This document shows, piece after piece, positions 200 through 22,498 of a stretch of 40,173 nucleotides of DNA. The notes beneath the pieces were generated by a model that saw only the letters and a list, made by a program, of their open reading frames with translations, was not told the origin of the DNA and ran no database searches. Source of the DNA: Myxococcales bacterium (GTDB taxonomy: Bacteria; Myxococcota_A; Polyangia; Haliangiales; Haliangiaceae); the NCBI GenBank assembly GCA_016794525.1, contig JAEUJY010000054.1:1-40173 (forward strand). The letters are read 5' to 3'. Made by a program: the position numbers and the translations under genes. Each line of letters starts with the position of its first letter. The stretch's first letter is position 1.

Positions 200-3043
<2,844 letters not shown>

Positions 3044-3050
3044 CACGTCG

Positions 3051-8199: not shown

Positions 8200-8535
8200 C
8201 TAGTCGTCGTCGCCGCCGTCGCCATCCTCGCTCAGCCGGGCCAGCGCGCGGCTGCGCAGCGCGTCCGGGAGCTGCTGGAAGAACGGCGCCACCGACGCGG
8301 CCTCGTCCTCCTCGTCGTAGATCAACGTCTCGAGCCGGATCGCCCTGGTCACGGGCGAGTGGCTCCCCTCGACCTCCGCGTACCAGCGCGGGAACGCCGC
8401 CTGGCCCCAGGCCAGGAACGCGTCGATCAGCTCGCGGTCCTTGCTGAAGACGTTCTCGAACACCTTGCCGTGGCCTTCGTAGATCTCGACGATGTCGTCG
8501 ACCGACGGGCCCTTGCGTGCGGACTTGGTTGCCAT
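8200..8535 (-). CDS. Small hypothetical protein (111 aa)
   Basis: The protein is soluble and acidic at the C-terminus (DGDGGDDD). It begins MATKSARKGPSVDDIVEIY and is predicted to be mostly helical. The composition is balanced and third positions are GC-rich, unlike the Arg-rich antisense frames. It sits between the two giant paralogues on the same strand, 57 bases before copy A and 41 bases after copy B. I do not recognise the family. The ATG at 8533-8535 is the first sensible start, because upstream codons run through the intergenic space. No strong ribosome binding site is seen. Confidence 0.7.
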   Translation of the reverse strand: MATKSARKGPSVDDIVEIYEGHGKVFENVFSKDRELIDAFLAWGQAAFPRWYAEVEGSHSPVTRAIRLETLIYDEEDEAASVAPFFQQLPDALRSRALARLSEDGDGGDDD

Positions 8536-8576: not shown

Positions 8577-11500
8577 TCACTGCGACGTCGCCACGCAGCC
8601 GAACCCCAGCTGGTAACCGGTGGCCGTCGTCGCCGCCGGTGCGGTCAGCGCCAGGTAGTAGGTCCGGTGGCCGGCCAGGATCGAGCCCGACGGCACGCCG
8701 GCCGAGGTCAGCGCGCAGCCGTCGTCGCCGGCCGCCGCGGTGATCGTCGCGGTCACGCCGGTCGCGGCCAGCGTCGTCGCCGTCACCGTCGCCTCGTACG
8801 GCGTCTCGAAGCGGTAGACCGCGCGGCCGCCCAGCGGCACCGTGCCGAACAGCGGCCGGGTCAGGCCGCTGCAGTACAGCGGGATCGCGTCGACGCACGG
8901 CGGCGGCGCCACCGGCGGCAGCGCGGCGTTCATCCGGTACATCGTGCCGTTGCCGCCGACCGCCCACACCGCGTCCTTCGACGCGCCGTGGACCGCGAGG
9001 AACGGCCGCTGGGTGCCCCCGGGCGGCGTGACCGTCACCCAGCTCAGCCCGTCGTAGTGGAGGATCGCGCCGACCTCGCCCACCGCCCAGATGTCCGACG
9101 CGCTGGCGCCCCAGATGCTGGCCAGCGTGCTCGGCACGTTCGGCAGCCCGGTCACCAGCGTGAACGCCGCGGCGGCCGGCCCCTTGTGCACCAGCGTGCC
9201 GACCGAGCGCACGCCGTCGCTGACCGTCGCGACCGCCCAGACGTCGTCGGCGCTGGCCGCGTAGATGCTGGTGACCGCGAGCGCCGGGTGCGCGTGCGAC
9301 GTCCACCCGCTGCCGTTCCAGCGATCGATCGCGCCGCCGCCGCCGCCGAGCCACACGTCGGTCGGGCTGCTGCCGCCGAGCGCCTGCGCGTCGAAGCCGT
9401 CGGGCCACGCGCCGAGCGCCGTCCAGCCGCCCGCGGTGGTGTACCGCCACAGCCCGCGCGGGCTGCTGTTGGCGACGAACAGCGCGCCGCCGATCGCCGC
9501 GACCGCGGTGATGCCCGGGATCGAGAACGGCGCGACCTCGGTCGACCACGCGCTGCCGTTCCAGCGCCGGACGCCGTTGTTCGGGCGCGAGAACGCCCAG
9601 ACGTCGGCGTCGGCGCGCGCCACCACCACGTCGGCGGGGAAGCCCGCGAGCGGCGTCTCCCACCGCGCCTCCGGCGCCTGACCGATGGGCTGGTCGGGGC
9701 GGTGGCGCACCAGGAACAGCGGCTGCGGCGGCGCGCCGTTGGGCACCGCGGTCACCCACACGTCGCCGGGGGTGACCGCGACCGTCGTGTTGATCGACTG
9801 GCCGAAGCGGCCGAGGATCGACGTCGCGTCGGTGGTCGTGCCCGGCAGGTACGGCGCGACCCAGCCCGCGCCGTCGCGGTGCGCGATCAGCGGGCCGTCG
9901 CCGAACGCCCACAGGTCGCCGCGACCGCTGTCGGCGACGCCGGCGAACGGGCCGTACGGGCCGACCTGGCGGCTCACGCCGACCGCGAGGTTGCCGGTGG
10001 TGTTGACCACCCACGCGCGGCCGTTGTCGGTGCCGGCGAGCCACAGGTTGTCGACCTCGCCGCCGGCGCCGACCAGCGTGCCCAGCAGATCGTTGAGGCC
10101 GGTCGGCGTCTGCTCCTTGAGCGGCGTCGCCGCCTGCCACACGCCGCGGACGCGCTGCGCGACGACGTTGGTGCCCTGGCCCAGGGTCGCGCTGGTGCCG
10201 CCGAGCGCCCAGATCAGCTCGGCGCTGCCGACCCACAGCCCGCGGTAGGTGGCGCTGGGCGGCGTCGACGAGGTCCAGCCGCCGGCGCCGCTGCGCTCGA
10301 GCAGCACCGGCCCGCCGGCCCCGACGCCGAGCACGTAGAGGTTGCCGCCGGCCAGGCCGCGCACCGCGGTGACCGCGGTCAGCGCCACCGGCAGCGTCTC
10401 GCGGACCCAGCTGGTGGCGCCGGTCGCGCGCCACACCTCGGCGGCGCCGCCGTTCTGGACGGTCGCGAACAGCCGCGCGCTGTCGCCCCACAGCTGGGTG
10501 ATCGGGGCGGCCGCGGGGGCGCCGCGCGTGAGCCACCCGGTGTCGCTGCGCTCGACCACGGCGCCGGTCGCGGTGCCGACCCAGACCTTGCCGCTCGCGC
10601 CGTGCAGCGCGCTGGCCTGGCTCACCGGTGGGGTCACCGCCGCCCAGCTCGCGCCGTCGCCGTGGATCACCGCGCGCGTCGTCCCGGTCCGGGGCCCGAC
10701 GATCGCCCACACGTCGCGCGGCCCGGCCGCGTACATCGCGATCACCGCGTCGCTCGCGCCGATCGTCACGCCGCTGGTGGTGGCGAGGCTGACCGCGGTC
10801 CAGCTCGACGCCTCGCACGCGCCGGTGTCGAGCTGGCAGTACGAGTCGCAGCCCAGCGCGCCGTGCTCGCCGAAGGTGCCGCACGACGACTCGAGCAGCG
10901 TGTGGGTGGCGCCGTCGCAGGCCTCGTCGCCCTGGACCACGCCGTCGCCGCAGCGGCCGCTGCAGCCGGCCAGATCGATCTTGGTGCACTCGTCGACGCA
11001 CATCAGCGCGCCGAACTGGTAGCCGAACGAGCGACAGCTGGCGTTGCCCAGGTAGCGGTCGTCCTCGGTCTGATCGGGCCAGTCCAGCGCGCCGGCGTCG
11101 CACGGCTCGGGGCCGTTGAGGATGCCGTCGCCGCAGAACTCGCTGCAGGTGGAGGTGTCGATCGTGCAGTCGGCGCGGCACGCCAGCGTGCCGAGGTACC
11201 GGCCGTGCTGATCGCCGGGCTGGCCCGGCTCGTCGAACAGCCACGACGTGCCGCAGGTCGCGCCGTCGAAGTCGCCGCCGTCGCACTCCTCGGGGCCCGG
11301 CCGCAGCAGGCCGTCGCCGCAGCGTCCGGCGAGCTGGCACTCGCTGGTGTCGAAGAAGCAGGTCGGCGTGCAGTTGAGGTTGCCGCCGTAGTAGTGCTCG
11401 GGCAGCGTCATGCACGACATGCCGTTCAGGTCCGGCGCGTCGCACTCCTCGTGCTGCGGGTCGACGATGCCGTCGCCGCACTGCCCCATGCACGCCGTCT

Positions 11501-12643: not shown

Positions 12644-13153
12644 TCAGCGGTCGCGGCCGGCGACGTCGAGCCCGACGTGCACCTCGACCGAGGCCACCAG
12701 CACCGGCAGGCGCAGCACGCGCAGGCCGGCCTCGAGCCGCGCCAGCAGCTCCGGCGGCGGGTAGCCGGGCGGCGGCGGCGGCGGCGGCGGGTTGATCCGC
12801 GCCGCGACCAGGTCGAACCGGCTGAGCGACCGCGCGGCGGCGCCGTCGTCGACGAAGCCGGCGATGAACGCGGCGCGCTCCTTGCGCGACGGCAGCAGCA
12901 CGACGGTCAGCTCCTCGGCGCCGTCGATCAGCACCAGCGCGTAGCTGCCCTTGTCGTCCTCGCCGCCGCCGACCAGGCTGGCGCTCATGGCGCGGCCGGC
13001 GTGGCGCGCGGCCAGGTCGTTCCAGGCCGGCAGCTCGACGCGGCGCATCTCGCGGCGATCGTGGCTGGCGACCAGCGCCGTCGGTTCGGTCACGAACCCG
13101 ACGCGAGGCTGGTGGGAGGTGTCGATCAGGTCGCGCAAGAGCTTCTTGAACAC
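12644..13153 (-). CDS. Hypothetical third gene of the ECF/CHAT operon (169 aa)
   Basis: Begins with GTG at 13151-13153, preceded by AAGGAG with 7 bases spacing, the clearest ribosome binding site in this region. The product starts MFKKLLRDLIDTSHQPRVGF. It has a predicted alpha/beta core to about residue 110, then a poly-Pro linker (PPPPPPPPGYPPP, encoded by a GGC run near 12772-12787) and a C-terminal helix plus strand. It starts 34 bases after the CHAT gene stop, so it is probably co-transcribed. There is no signal peptide. I do not recognise the family; it may be a substrate or partner of the CHAT protease, which is inference from position only. Confidence 0.72.
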   Translation of the reverse strand: MFKKLLRDLIDTSHQPRVGFVTEPTALVASHDRREMRRVELPAWNDLAARHAGRAMSASLVGGGEDDKGSYALVLIDGAEELTVVLLPSRKERAAFIAGFVDDGAAARSLSRFDLVAARINPPPPPPPPGYPPPELLARLEAGLRVLRLPVLVASVEVHVGLDVAGRDR

Positions 13154-13187
13154 GGGCGGTCTCCTTGCTGTACGGGGCGGGTGACGG

Positions 13188-16058
13188 TCACTGGAACACC
13201 ACGAGGCGGCGCACCCACGACGTCGGATCGGTGGCGAGCCGCGCGGCGCGCAGCTCGGCCACGGCGTCGGCCATCGCGACGCCGCGTGCGGCGGCGTCGC
13301 CGAGCGCGGCAAAGACCTCGCCGGCCTCGCGGTCGGGGATGGGCCCGTCGGCGGCCACCACCGCGCGGGCGCCGGCGGCCACGAACGCCGCGGGGAGACC
13401 CCACGCGATCTGCTCGTAGCCCGCGGTGGCGGCGGCGTTGCACTCGGCGAGCAGCACCACCGGCGCCGCCGTGAGGCGCCAGCCCCGCACCACCTCGGCG
13501 GTGACCGCCCAGCCGTCCGGGCTGTCGGTCAGCGCAAGCGCGGGCGCGTCCGACCCAGCGGCGGGGGCGGTGTGCGCGTGGATCTCGAGCACCGTCGCCG
13601 TGGCGGCGGCGCTGGCGACTCCAGCGACCGTGGCAGCGGCGCCGCGGACGAGCGTGGCGTCCGCGGGGACGTCGAGCACCGCGCCCACCGGCGGCAACGC
13701 GAGCCACGCCGGCGGCAGCGCGCCGCCGACGATCACCCGGCGCGGCGGCGCCGCGCGCGGCGGCGTGCCGGGCCCGAGCACGAACCACCAGCGCAGCGCC
13801 GGCGGCAGCCCGAGGTCGCGACCCAGCCAGGGCGCGGTGGCGAGCACGGCCACCTCGGCGCAGCCCGCCAGCGGCGCCACCACCGCCGGGGGCAGCCCGC
13901 CGGCGTCGCGGTGATCGGGGTCGAAGGCGCCGGTGGCGTGACCGTCGGGCCCCAGCGCGATCGCGGCGTACCGGATGCTGTCCGACGCCACCGCGAGCGC
14001 GCATCGCGTCGGGACCGTCGCGCGGGTCGCGCGCGCCAGCGCCGCCACGCCGTCGGCCCAGCGCCCGTCGGCCGCCGCCGCGACCGCCAGCGTCGCGGCC
14101 GCGAGCTGCGCCACCGCCGGGCGGCCGGGCCCGCTCTCGGGCGCGTCCGAGGTCAGGAGCGCGGCGAGCGCGTCGGCGGCCTGCGGATCGTCCCCGAGCG
14201 CGAGCCGGGCGCGCAGGTAGCGGATCAGGTCGGTCTCGAACCGCTCGCTCGTCACGACCGAGGCCAGCGCGGCGTCGAGCTCGGCCTTCGGGCGCAGCGG
14301 GCGCCCGACGCTCGCCAGCTCCACCTCGAAGTACAGGTCGACCAGCCGCGGCGTCGGCTCGCACGCCGGGTGCGCGCGCAGCAGCGCGACCGCGCCGTCG
14401 AGATCGTGGCGATCGACTGCGAACTCGGCGGCCACCACCGCGGCCTGCCGCGCCGCCGCGCAGGTCGCGGCCGACCGCGCCACCTCGTCGAGGTACGCGC
14501 CCGCCAGCGCCGCGTCGCCGCGGATCCGCTCGGCGTTGGCGATCAGCTCGAGCGCGCGCCAGCGCAGGCCCCACTCGCCGGTCTGCTCGGCCAGCCGCAC
14601 CGCGACGCGGCCGGCCTCGGCGGTCGCCGGCGCCTGGTAGCGCGTCCACGCCAGCTCGGCGCGCTGGTACGCCACCCGCGCGCACGGATACGCCGACAGC
14701 GTGCCCGCCGCGCACGCCGCCTCGAGCGCGGCCAGCCGGCGCGCGGCGTCGTCGGGCGCCGCCGCCCGCACCGCGATCACCTCGTACAGCGCCGGCAGCC
14801 AGCCGCCTTGCTTCGCCGCGACGGCCGCCAAGGCCGGCGACGCGTCGGCGGCCCGCGCGCCCAGGATCATCGCGCCCAGCACCAGCGCGTCGGCGCGAGC
14901 GGTGCGCGCCGCGGCCAGCCACCCGCGCCAGGCGTCGTCGTCGGAGATCGCCAGCGCGTTCAGCCACGCCAGGTACGGCGCCCGCAGCGCGTCGGGCACC
15001 GCCGCCGGGCGCGCCGCGTCGAGCCGCACCACCAGGCCGGCGCCGGTCAACGCGTCCAGCTCGGTCGCCAGCGGCCGCAGCTCGGCCAGGCGCGCCGGCG
15101 TCGTCGCCAATCGGATCGCGTCGTCGAGGCGCAGCGCCGCACGCGCCGGGAACCGTCGCGCCAGCGGCAGCGGCATCGGCGGCCCACCGGCGGCCATCGC
15201 CGCGCCCGCCTCGACGGCGCGCTGGTAGTCGTCGCGCAGATCGAGCAGCGGGCCGCGCGCGTCGGCGGCGCGCCGGCGGGCCTCCTCGGCCCACGGCGGG
15301 TCGAGCTCGGCGACGCGGTCGAAGGCCGCCGCCGCCGCCAGCCCGAGGCCGAGGTCGCGCAGCGCCAGCGCCCGGTTCCACAGCGCCACCGGGTGCGTCG
15401 GCGCGATCGCCAGCGCGCGGTCGGCCAGCGCCAGCGCCCGGGCCGGCGCGTGGTCGAGGAGCTCCAGGCCCGCGCGATCGGCGTCGAGGTCGGCGCCGTC
15501 GCCGCAGCGGTCGTGCTGTTGCCGCGCCCGCGCCAGCTCGCCCGACAGCACGTAGGTGGCGGCCACGCCCGCGCAGTCGCCGCGCTCGACCAGCGCCGCG
15601 ACCACGCGCGGGTCGACGTACTCGGCGGCGGCGGTCGCCGAGCGCATCGGATCGTACGGGCGGTACGCGCGCGCGCCGGCCCACGCCAGCCGCGGCTCGA
15701 TCGTGCGCGCCGGCGCCAGCGCCAGCGTCGGCGCGGCGGCCGGGCGGCGGGCCGCGCCCTGCCACGGGCGCACCGCGACCAGCGCGATCGCCGCCACCGC
15801 CAGCGTCGAGCTCGCGATCACCAGCGGCCAGCGCCGGCGGCGACCCGCGCCGATCGGGATCACCGGCGCGTCGCCGGCACGCGTCGTCGTCGTCGTCGTC
15901 GCGGCCCCCCGCAGCGCGTCCTCGCGATCGCGCAGCTGCACCTCGCCGTGCAGCTCGGCCTGGCACGCCGCGCAGTCGATCAGGTGATCGAGGAACCGCG
16001 CCTCGGCCTCCTCGCCCAGCGCGCCGTCGAGGTACGCGTCGACCTGGTGCGGGCTCAC
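13188..16058 (-). CDS. Anti-sigma-like zinc finger / TM / TPR-like / CHAT protease fusion
   Basis: A 956-residue protein. Residues 5-40 form a zf-HC2 anti-sigma-type zinc finger with HxxxCxxC (H25, C29, C32). A poly-Thr linker (about 54-59, from a GTC trinucleotide repeat) and one transmembrane helix (about 78-96) follow. A long Ala-rich helical repeat region, TPR-like by appearance, covers about 110-720. The C-terminus is a CHAT (caspase-like) domain with the His in EIHAHT (about 827-829) and the Cys in LLAECNAA (C873). The start codon overlaps the sigma-factor stop by 4 bases (ATGA), so translation is coupled. The order suggests a membrane anti-sigma factor whose outer part carries a protease. 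Whether the CHAT part is active, and on what, cannot be told from sequence. Confidence 0.88.
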   Translation of the reverse strand: MSPHQVDAYLDGALGEEAEARFLDHLIDCAACQAELHGEVQLRDREDALRGAATTTTTTRAGDAPVIPIGAGRRRRWPLVIASSTLAVAAIALVAVRPWQGAARRPAAAPTLALAPARTIEPRLAWAGARAYRPYDPMRSATAAAEYVDPRVVAALVERGDCAGVAATYVLSGELARARQQHDRCGDGADLDADRAGLELLDHAPARALALADRALAIAPTHPVALWNRALALRDLGLGLAAAAAFDRVAELDPPWAEEARRRAADARGPLLDLRDDYQRAVEAGAAMAAGGPPMPLPLARRFPARAALRLDDAIRLATTPARLAELRPLATELDALTGAGLVVRLDAARPAAVPDALRAPYLAWLNALAISDDDAWRGWLAAARTARADALVLGAMILGARAADASPALAAVAAKQGGWLPALYEVIAVRAAAPDDAARRLAALEAACAAGTLSAYPCARVAYQRAELAWTRYQAPATAEAGRVAVRLAEQTGEWGLRWRALELIANAERIRGDAALAGAYLDEVARSAATCAAARQAAVVAAEFAVDRHDLDGAVALLRAHPACEPTPRLVDLYFEVELASVGRPLRPKAELDAALASVVTSERFETDLIRYLRARLALGDDPQAADALAALLTSDAPESGPGRPAVAQLAAATLAVAAAADGRWADGVAALARATRATVPTRCALAVASDSIRYAAIALGPDGHATGAFDPDHRDAGGLPPAVVAPLAGCAEVAVLATAPWLGRDLGLPPALRWWFVLGPGTPPRAAPPRRVIVGGALPPAWLALPPVGAVLDVPADATLVRGAAATVAGVASAAATATVLEIHAHTAPAAGSDAPALALTDSPDGWAVTAEVVRGWRLTAAPVVLLAECNAAATAGYEQIAWGLPAAFVAAGARAVVAADGPIPDREAGEVFAALGDAAARGVAMADAVAELRAARLATDPTSWVRRLVVFQ

Positions 16059-16621
16059 GCCTCACCTCCGGCGCGCGCGGCCAAGAGCTCGCGCAGGCGC
16101 TTGCGCGCGCGCAGGATCCGCGAGCCGACCGTGCCCTTGGGCACGCCCAGCGCCTGGGCGATCGCCACGTAGTCGCGGCCCTCGAGCGCGAACATGCGGT
16201 AGGTGTCGCGCACGTCCTCCGGCAGCTCGGCCACCGCCGCGCGCACGTCCTCGACGTCGAGCGCGGCCCACGGCGCGTCGTGCTCGGCGGTCGGCGCCGG
16301 CGGATCGATCGCCAGCTCGACCTCACCCGGGCGGACCCGGCGGCGGCGCAGCGTGTCGAGGAACGTGTTGGTGACGATCGCCAGGAACCAGCCGCGCGCG
16401 TGGTCGGCGTCCTTGAGCTGGCCGCGGGCGCGGAACGCCCGCACCAGCGCGTCCTGGATCAGGTCATCGGGATCGACCGCGGCGCGGCACAGCTGCGCCG
16501 CCCGCACGCGCAGCGCCGGCAGGTGCTCGGCCACCAGCGCGTCGAAGGCCGGGTCGACGGCCGCGGGCGCGCCCTCGCGCAGGCGCACGGCAGGGGCGAC
16601 GGCGGCGGACGGCGACAGCAC
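16055..16621 (-). CDS. ECF-type RNA polymerase sigma factor
   Basis: A 188-residue group IV sigma factor. Sigma-2 includes DPDDLIQDALVRAF (about 50-63) and GWFLAIVTNTFLD (about 77-89), matching the -10-binding and core-binding regions. Sigma-4 includes LPEDVRDTYRMF and the helix-turn-helix YVAIAQALGVPKGTVGSRI (about 151-169). The GTG start at 16619-16621 is chosen because GGTGGAGGC lies about 7 bases upstream and the length then matches the family; the frame is open up to 16765. It heads the operon with the zinc-finger/CHAT gene (4-base overlap) and the 169-aa gene. A TAGATT hexamer at 16677-16682 (minus strand) may be part of its promoter. Confidence 0.92.
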   Translation of the reverse strand: MLSPSAAVAPAVRLREGAPAAVDPAFDALVAEHLPALRVRAAQLCRAAVDPDDLIQDALVRAFRARGQLKDADHARGWFLAIVTNTFLDTLRRRRVRPGEVELAIDPPAPTAEHDAPWAALDVEDVRAAVAELPEDVRDTYRMFALEGRDYVAIAQALGVPKGTVGSRILRARKRLRELLAARAGGEA

Positions 16622-16882
16622 GGGCTCGCCTCCACCGACGTCCCCGGCCGCACGATCTTCGCGGTCCGCCGTCACGAATCTACCGGTACCACGGAGACGC
16701 TCGAAAATCCTGACCCCAGCGTTCATCCGGATGCTGACGCGTGTCGCGAGGACCCCGACGCTCATGGCCGGCCGCCCGCCCGCCCGCGGCTCCTGGCCCA
16801 GGTGCTCATCGTGCCTCTACCCCCCAGGACGCACCGGCGCCCGGTTCTTCACGCGGCCCGCCCCGCCGCCGCCCCGCCGCGG

Positions 16883-21220: not shown

Positions 21221-22498
21221 ATGTCGAACGATCAGAAGCCGCCTGCCAAGACCATCATGGGGTGGGCCCCCAACAACCTGCCGGGTCAGCCGGGCCAGCC
21301 GGGCCAACCGCAGCAGCCGTGGGATCAGCAACCGCCCGCGGCGCAGCCGCCCCAGCAGTGGGGCGCGCCGCAGCCGCCGCCGCCCGCGCAGCCGTGGGGT
21401 CAGCAGCCGCCGATGCCGCAGCCGCCGCAGGCGCCGCCGCAGCAGTGGGGCGCGCCGCAACCGCCGCCGCCCGCGCAGCCGTGGGGCCAGCAGCCGCCGA
21501 TGCCGCAGGCGCCGCCGCCGCAGCAGCCGTGGGGCGCGCAGCCGCCGATGCCGCAGCAGCCGCCTCCGCAGCAGTGGGGCGCGCCTCCGCCGCAGCCGCC
21601 TCCGCCGCAGCAGCAGGGCTGGGGTGGGCCGCCGCCGCAGCAGGGGCCGTCGTTCGGCGCGCCTCCGGGCGTCGGCTTCGGCGGGCCGCCGCAGGGCATG
21701 CCGTTCGGCAACCAGCAGCAAGGCAGCAAGCGCGGCATCGCCGGCGCCGACGCGACCGTCGGCGTGTCGGCGCGGGTCAAGTACATCCGCCTCGTCTACC
21801 TGCACCTGTTCGTGGCGATCCTGGCGTTCACCGCCATCGAGTGGTTGCTGTTCAAGAACGCGACGCTCAGCAAGAAGGTCACCGCGCCGCTGGTCGACTT
21901 CGCGATCGGTCACTTCTACGAGGGCGACTTCTACCCGGCCCCCCGCTGGCACTGGGGCGTCGTGCTGGCGGTGTTCACCGCGCTCAGCTTCATCGCGCAC
22001 TACATGGCCGAGCACACGCGGTCCAAGCCGCTGCACTACATCGGCCTGACGATCTACACGATCGGCGAGGCCCTGATCTTCGTGCCGCTGCTGATGATCG
22101 TCACCTGGGTCACCAAGGACATGGTCGCGAGCGGCAAGGGCGATCCCAACATCATCCGTGACGCCGCGTACATCACGCTGGGTGTGTTCGGCGCGCTGAC
22201 CGCGTCGGTGTTCATCACCAAGAAGGACTTCTCGTTCCTCCGCACCGCGCTGGTCGTCGGCGGCGCCGCGGCGATGGGCCTGATCGTCCTGTCGCTGGTG
22301 TTCGGCTTCAACCTCGGGATCGTCTTCTCGATCGCGATGGTGCTCCTCGCCGCCGGCCAGATCCTCTACGAGACGTCGCAGATCATGCAGCACGACGACA
22401 CCGACAACTACGTCGGCGCCGCCCTGTCGCTGTTCGCCTCGGTCGCGCTCTTGTTCTGGTACGTCATCCGCATCCTGCTCAAGCTGCGGTCGGAGTGA
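21221..22498 (+). CDS. Bax inhibitor-1-like (TMBIM) membrane protein with Pro/Gln-rich tail
   Basis: A 425-residue protein. Residues 1-183 are low complexity, rich in Pro, Gln, Ala and Trp, with repeats such as QPWGQQPPMPQ. From about 187 to 422 there are about seven hydrophobic helices. The C-terminal part (ETSQIMQHDDTDNYVGAALSLF, then YVIRIL) matches the pattern of the Bax inhibitor-1/YccA family, which are calcium-leak or protease-modulating membrane proteins. The long cytosolic tail is not part of the family core. AAGGGAG about 11 bases before ATG 21221 is a clear ribosome binding site. TAGACT at 21173-21178 may be its -10. It is divergent from the rhomboid-like gene. Confidence 0.85.
   Translation: MSNDQKPPAKTIMGWAPNNLPGQPGQPGQPQQPWDQQPPAAQPPQQWGAPQPPPPAQPWGQQPPMPQPPQAPPQQWGAPQPPPPAQPWGQQPPMPQAPPPQQPWGAQPPMPQQPPPQQWGAPPPQPPPPQQQGWGGPPPQQGPSFGAPPGVGFGGPPQGMPFGNQQQGSKRGIAGADATVGVSARVKYIRLVYLHLFVAILAFTAIEWLLFKNATLSKKVTAPLVDFAIGHFYEGDFYPAPRWHWGVVLAVFTALSFIAHYMAEHTRSKPLHYIGLTIYTIGEALIFVPLLMIVTWVTKDMVASGKGDPNIIRDAAYITLGVFGALTASVFITKKDFSFLRTALVVGGAAAMGLIVLSLVFGFNLGIVFSIAMVLLAAGQILYETSQIMQHDDTDNYVGAALSLFASVALLFWYVIRILLKLRSE

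Follow-up and report, generated by a model that had tools for sequence, protein, structure and literature searches.

Can an anti-sigma factor with a built-in protease domain across the membrane act as a switch that frees an ECF sigma factor? This question is raised by a three-gene locus in the 40,173-nucleotide stretch of a Myxococcales bacterium analysed here (contig JAEUJY010000054.1 of assembly GCA_016794525.1), hereafter called the window. The first-pass annotation had described a sigma gene, a gene for a zinc-finger/membrane/CHAT protein and a third gene; all three are real and lie on the minus strand in that order of transcription. The sigma gene (16055..16621, GTG start at 16621) encodes 188 residues, or 236 if translation begins at an upstream ATG at 16765. 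Its product exceeds the Pfam cut-offs for Sigma70_r2 and Sigma70_r4_2 and scores 80.7 bits against TIGR02937 (cut-off 42.9); having regions 2 and 4 only, it qualifies as an ECF factor. It is 62-68% identical to the sigma factors encoded next to the CHAT genes of the two closest relatives. The sigma stop overlaps the start of the CHAT gene by four nucleotides (16055..16058, minus strand). The overlap itself was correctly noted at first, but it reads GTGA and not ATGA, since the CHAT gene begins with GTG. As judged from the sequence, this overlap couples translation of the two genes, and comparable overlaps are found in most relatives. The layout is more than chance, because it recurs in dozens of myxobacterial loci. 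No -35/-10 pattern of a common ECF promoter was found upstream of the sigma genes of the family. Upstream of the Kofleriaceae sigma genes of this family a GAAGA(T/C) element is overrepresented: GAAGAT[CT] occurs in 6 of 16, where 0.2 would be expected. In the window the element lies on the minus strand at about 16654-16660; the longer form SRGAAGATCS has no match within the window.

The CHAT gene (13188..16058, minus strand, GTG start) encodes a protein of 956 residues. A search with phmmer aligned its residues 5-956 with residues 8-991 of DdvA (PDB 8ROT) at E 8.7e-47, and the family profile retrieved DdvA (8ROT/8RW5) from the Protein Data Bank over its full length at E 1.2e-258. An AlphaFold2 model, built from 48 sequences with a mean pLDDT of 87.9, has DdvA 8ROT as its best match both with Foldseek (TM 0.73 and 0.78, E 3.3e-34) and with VIA (Z 37.3 over 827 residues). 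It is virtually certain that the window protein belongs to the DdvA type. Its N-terminus carries an anti-sigma zinc finger (residues 4-32, 15963..16049), matched by zf-HC2 over residues 6-33 with 23.6 bits (Pfam cut-off 22.2). The finger residues H25, C29 and C32 and the CHAT residues H827, H829 and C873 lie exactly where they were first placed, as confirmed on the translation. H25, C29 and C32 are invariant in 17 aligned relatives. A fourth ligand had been missed: a Cys or His at -22 from the finger His in those other members that were read individually, and H4, at -21, in the window protein. The rest of the protein consists of a single membrane helix, a TPR superhelix (residues 150-680, 14019..15611) delimited from the AlphaFold2 helices, and a CHAT domain resembling those of separase and Csx29 (residues 681-956, 13191..14018). 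The latter was recognized by VIA and by Pfam (PF12770, residues 804-943, 32.9 bits, cut-off 24).

In Myxococcus xanthus, DdvA acts as anti-sigma factor to DdvS, which becomes active once DdvA is inactivated; the signal was not known as of 2015 (PMC4374960). As in the window, the DdvS/DdvA pair (PDB 8ROT, 8RW5, 8RLZ; Bernal-Bernal 2018, NAR, and 2024, Sci Adv 10:eadp1053) consists of an ECF sigma gene and a transmembrane anti-sigma factor with an N-terminal finger and a C-terminal TPR-CHAT part. Both proteins share the same fold over nearly their whole length and the His and Cys of the presumed dyad, but they are only about 25% identical, and within the family DdvA lies closer to a different clade. 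At the first ligand position of the finger the window protein has His and DdvA Cys, and the cysteine pair 533/566 of the window protein is absent from DdvA in the family alignment. The title of entry 8RW5 describes DdvA as dimeric. A finger, a single membrane helix and a far-side CHAT domain are thus indeed joined in one protein, as proposed, and the prototype is an established anti-sigma factor of solved structure; this strongly indicates an anti-sigma function for the finger. What does not survive is the fusion as a novelty. The same architecture has been published for DdvA (8ROT/8RW5), so that the fusion is known in kind and the window protein adds one more member.

To locate the CHAT domain relative to the membrane, hydropathy and charge were compared across the family. 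The single helix (residues about 78-96, 15771..15827) is preceded by RRRR, the positive side facing the finger, and basic residues are commoner before than after the helix in nearly all members. Cysteines of the C-terminal part are kept or lost in pairs. Both members of the pair 449/459 are present in 57 proteins and neither in 2, with no single cysteine; for 533/566 the corresponding numbers are 52, 6 and 1, and both cysteines of 686/733 are found in 59 proteins, the independent losses behind these counts being few (two or three). The first two pairs lie in the TPR superhelix and the third in the CHAT domain. Cysteines that are lost pairwise are expected to form disulfides, and hence to lie in a compartment outside the cytoplasm. 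Because basic residues precede the helix and the cysteine pairs are lost together, both of them indirect markers, we strongly infer that the C-terminal TPR-CHAT part is extracytoplasmic. Just beyond the helix, the motif R118-x-x-E121-x-R123 (15690..15707) is conserved despite variable flanks (R118 in 54, E121 in 52 and R123 in 54 of the 57 relatives with a complete CHAT domain). It is a candidate cleavage or docking segment, and taking it for the cleavage site itself would be a guess.

After DdvA, the closest VIA matches of the CHAT part are Csx29/TPR-CHAT (Z 20.8), separase (about 17) and gingipain R (about 16), all three of which are proteases. A profile of the CHAT domain alone, run against solved structures, found DdvA as its sole sequence-level match; the proposed kinship to Csx29 and separase is one of modelled fold. 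The predicted catalytic residues H829 (13572..13574) and C873 (13440..13442) are invariant in all 57 relatives with a complete CHAT domain, including members that have no sigma gene, and D909 is kept in 54 of them. The conservation that the first-pass annotation had wanted checked is thus complete for H829 and C873; H827, the first His of the HxH motif, is His in 49 of the 57. Of the outcomes named in that annotation as refuting it, none was observed among those open to a test. Selection on the presumed active site is strict throughout the family, and the CHAT domain of DdvA-type proteins is probably catalytic. A different view would make the domain a catalytically silent sensor, in which a bound ligand or partner would alter the dimer and loosen its finger, or else lay open a site to other proteases. 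The variation at H827 would fit, as would the active site of DdvA, which the structure paper reportedly calls incomplete. Silent caspase-like domains, however, usually lose the catalytic His or Cys, and the complete retention of H829 and C873, even in proteins with no sigma factor to regulate, makes a silent domain improbable in our judgement.

Known systems provide precedents for proteolysis at such a locus. In type III-E CRISPR, Csx29 cleaves Csx30, an inhibitor of an ECF sigma factor (PMC10028731). There, as in the window, a CHAT protease goes together with an ECF sigma factor and its anti-sigma protein, and Csx29 has a TPR-CHAT fold similar to that of the window protein (VIA Z about 20). 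In that system, however, protease and anti-sigma protein are separate and the protease is activated by RNA through Cas7-11, whereas the window encodes a single membrane-anchored fusion. Csx29, Csx30 and CASP-sigma form, by analogy, the closest worked-out precedent for a CHAT domain acting on an anti-sigma protein. The ECF54 group also has CHAT proteins, besides subtilases or carboxypeptidases, in its gene context, and proteolytic regulation has been proposed for it (PMC8999054). That proposal dispenses with an anti-sigma factor, in contrast to the window, where CHAT is fused to a zinc-finger anti-sigma domain encoded by the adjacent gene. Like the window protein, RseA of the RseA/DegS/RseP system is a membrane anti-sigma factor coupled to sensing outside the cytoplasm; its site-1 protease is a separate protein, while in the window the protease domain is built in.

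In order to determine how widely this arrangement is shared, we searched for relatives in the order of the window and across the phylum. They are present in 16 of 35 genomes of the order. The source genome holds three full-length copies of the CHAT protein; one Kofleriaceae-level genome has eleven matches, some of them fragments, the most of any genome searched. A first scan of contigs of named genomes with a single protein as query retrieved no relatives; an alignment query did, yielding 53 loci. Every locus with a group in its title belongs to the Myxococcota, a few being labelled simply Deltaproteobacteria. The family was found in Kofleriaceae, Nannocystis, Myxococcus, Pyxidicoccus, Corallococcus, Archangium, Hyalangium and Citreicoccus. 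Within the phylum a clear gap in the matches to the CHAT profile sets it apart: E stays under 1e-77 for DdvA-type proteins, with the exception of a short fragment with a broken frame (6.5e-14), and exceeds 1e-23 for the other CHAT proteins. The counts exclude five truncated or frame-broken loci (L051, L054, L091, L096 and L104).

Pairing with an ECF sigma gene, which the first-pass annotation had suggested looking for by profile search, recurs across these myxobacterial loci: a sigma gene lies upstream of 43 of the 44 complete fingered relatives. Among the 56 members with a complete CHAT domain, 43 have both finger and sigma gene, 12 have neither, one (L040) has only the finger and none has only the sigma gene. 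In L039 the sigma gene is set 722 nt upstream. The CHAT-domain tree has four changes of the finger, but only one independent, well-supported pair, in which sigma follows finger, can be drawn from it, so that its statistical weight is modest. Distances between sigma factors correlate with those between fingers, TPR parts and CHAT domains (r 0.68-0.71, against at most 0.27 in shuffles): the sigma and CHAT-protein sequences diverge in parallel.

Coupling of finger and sigma gene is not coupling of CHAT and sigma gene. All 12 finger-less, sigma-less proteins retain the H829/C873 dyad. Most finger-less proteins are membrane-anchored; L053 shows no anchor in the reading used. Conversely, five short proteins (in L067, L088, L094, L095 and L099) have a sigma partner, a finger and a helix without CHAT. 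In L067 (5770-11401) the two halves of the fusion stand apart: a finger-less CHAT gene ends at 8514 and, about 1.2 kb further on, a sigma frame starting at 9707 is paired with a CHAT-less finger/helix protein of 284 residues. Since dyad-keeping, sigma-less relatives and CHAT-less sigma/finger proteins both exist, the CHAT and sigma-switch functions are separable. Retention of the dyad in finger-less, sigma-less proteins also means that CHAT has probably been selected for more than sigma release and probably has, or had, an additional substrate. A protease that serves sigma release alone cannot be the full explanation.

A candidate for such a substrate is encoded directly downstream. The third gene (12644..13153, minus strand) has, as first described, 169 codons and an AAGGAG upstream of its GTG start; its product is proline-rich near the C-terminus. 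No Pfam or NCBIfam family exceeded its cut-off. Pfam matches to androgen receptor and PRIMA1 fell below the cut-off and are apparent artefacts of proline composition. The AlphaFold2 model is poor (pLDDT 54), residues 31-100 being better. The gene is single-copy in the source genome, and the homologues found are confined to the position immediately after CHAT in the two closest relatives, apart from a marginal match (E 5e-4) elsewhere in L049. The small gene behind CHAT is a different one in most other clades, whether or not a sigma gene is present, and about a dozen of 32 such genes have a lipobox-like start. Tandem sigma-CHAT-sigma-CHAT arrays in Pyxidicoccus and Myxococcus (L062, L068, L083 and L105) carry a short proline-rich frame of about 60-83 codons with DPPP motifs behind each CHAT gene.

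These observations bear on a reading, akin to the alternative offered in the first-pass annotation, in which CHAT is an extracytoplasmic protease whose main substrate is another protein, for example the downstream product. The sigma factor would then report binding or the state of CHAT, and would not be released by self-cleavage. The intact dyad of finger-less, sigma-less members agrees with this, as does the small gene behind CHAT with or without sigma, often encoding a lipoprotein. Several groups of these genes look related by HHalign (G1 and G2 at 92%, L038 and L043 at 84%), and proline triplets occur in 22 of 32 downstream partners compared with 17 of 145 control genes, in a post hoc test that ignores relatedness. 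Against it, the partner genes have diverged strongly, to the point that kinship is not detectable for several groups, and in one clade (L070, L071 and L076) the finger-less CHAT gene is followed by a conserved protein of 417-419 residues, unrelated to the small partner. We consider a main substrate other than the anti-sigma protein possible, if rather unlikely. The fast-evolving small gene behind CHAT may nevertheless encode a partner or substrate. In the broadest form of this idea, DdvA-type proteins would be membrane-anchored extracytoplasmic caspase-like enzymes, each with a fast-evolving downstream partner or substrate, and sigma factor and finger an optional module that reads partner binding or cleavage into transcription; this we offer as a speculation of low probability.

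Whatever the mechanism, the pair could serve as an antiphage regulator that, like DdvS/DdvA, turns on a CBASS/CRISPR island in the source species. DdvS does control a defence island in M. xanthus (PMC12288465). Yet no defence family recurs among 86 genes neighbouring the CHAT relatives, each PADLOC family listed matching one member, and DdvA is nearest a clade other than that of the window protein. PADLOC gave no match for the sigma, CHAT and third proteins. The window neighbours to which Pfam was applied encode a kinase/STAND protein, a histidine kinase, a sigma-54 activator, a Bax1-I protein and large surface-type proteins. We consider such a role unlikely. The product of the kinase gene (203-3046, minus strand) joins a Ser/Thr kinase to an nSTAND1 domain; the Bax1-I family membrane protein is encoded at 21221-22495 on the plus strand.

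The explanation that we favour, and regard as a whole as somewhat likelier to be right than wrong, is that of a DdvS/DdvA-type pair controlled by proteolysis. The cytoplasmic zinc finger would hold the sigma factor, with the single helix spanning the membrane and the extracytoplasmic TPR-CHAT part combining the roles of sensor and caspase-like protease. An extracytoplasmic signal, perhaps conveyed by the small protein encoded downstream, would activate CHAT, which would cut the anti-sigma molecule near the membrane, probably that of the dimer neighbour. A site-2 protease would then complete intramembrane proteolysis and release the sigma factor. We prefer this explanation because of the full-length homology to DdvA, the invariant dyad, the co-occurrence of finger and sigma gene, the parallel divergence of sigma factor and CHAT protein and the topology markers, and because the CHAT fold matches are proteases, site-2-type M50 proteases are present in the source genome and Csx29/Csx30 provide a precedent. 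Counting against it are the dyad kept without sigma and finger, the sigma/finger proteins without CHAT, the reportedly incomplete active site of DdvA, and the third protein, for which no signal peptide was seen in the clade of the window and which fits an extracytoplasmic CHAT partner poorly. The 2024 structure paper by Bernal-Bernal reportedly raises autoproteolysis of CHAT in trans within the DdvA dimer before intramembrane proteolysis by RseP; the central idea of the first-pass annotation would thus already be in print for the prototype.

What is new here is family-wide: the invariant dyad, the cysteine pairs lost together, the tight coupling of finger and sigma gene, the CHAT relatives without sigma and a candidate partner gene. 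Nature has provided variants that part the protease from the sigma switch, in the form of sigma-less CHAT proteins and CHAT-less anti-sigma proteins, and the downstream gene is flagged as a possible partner of CHAT. A structural proposal for sigma release by DdvA-type proteins thereby becomes a set of questions that can be tested by single mutants.
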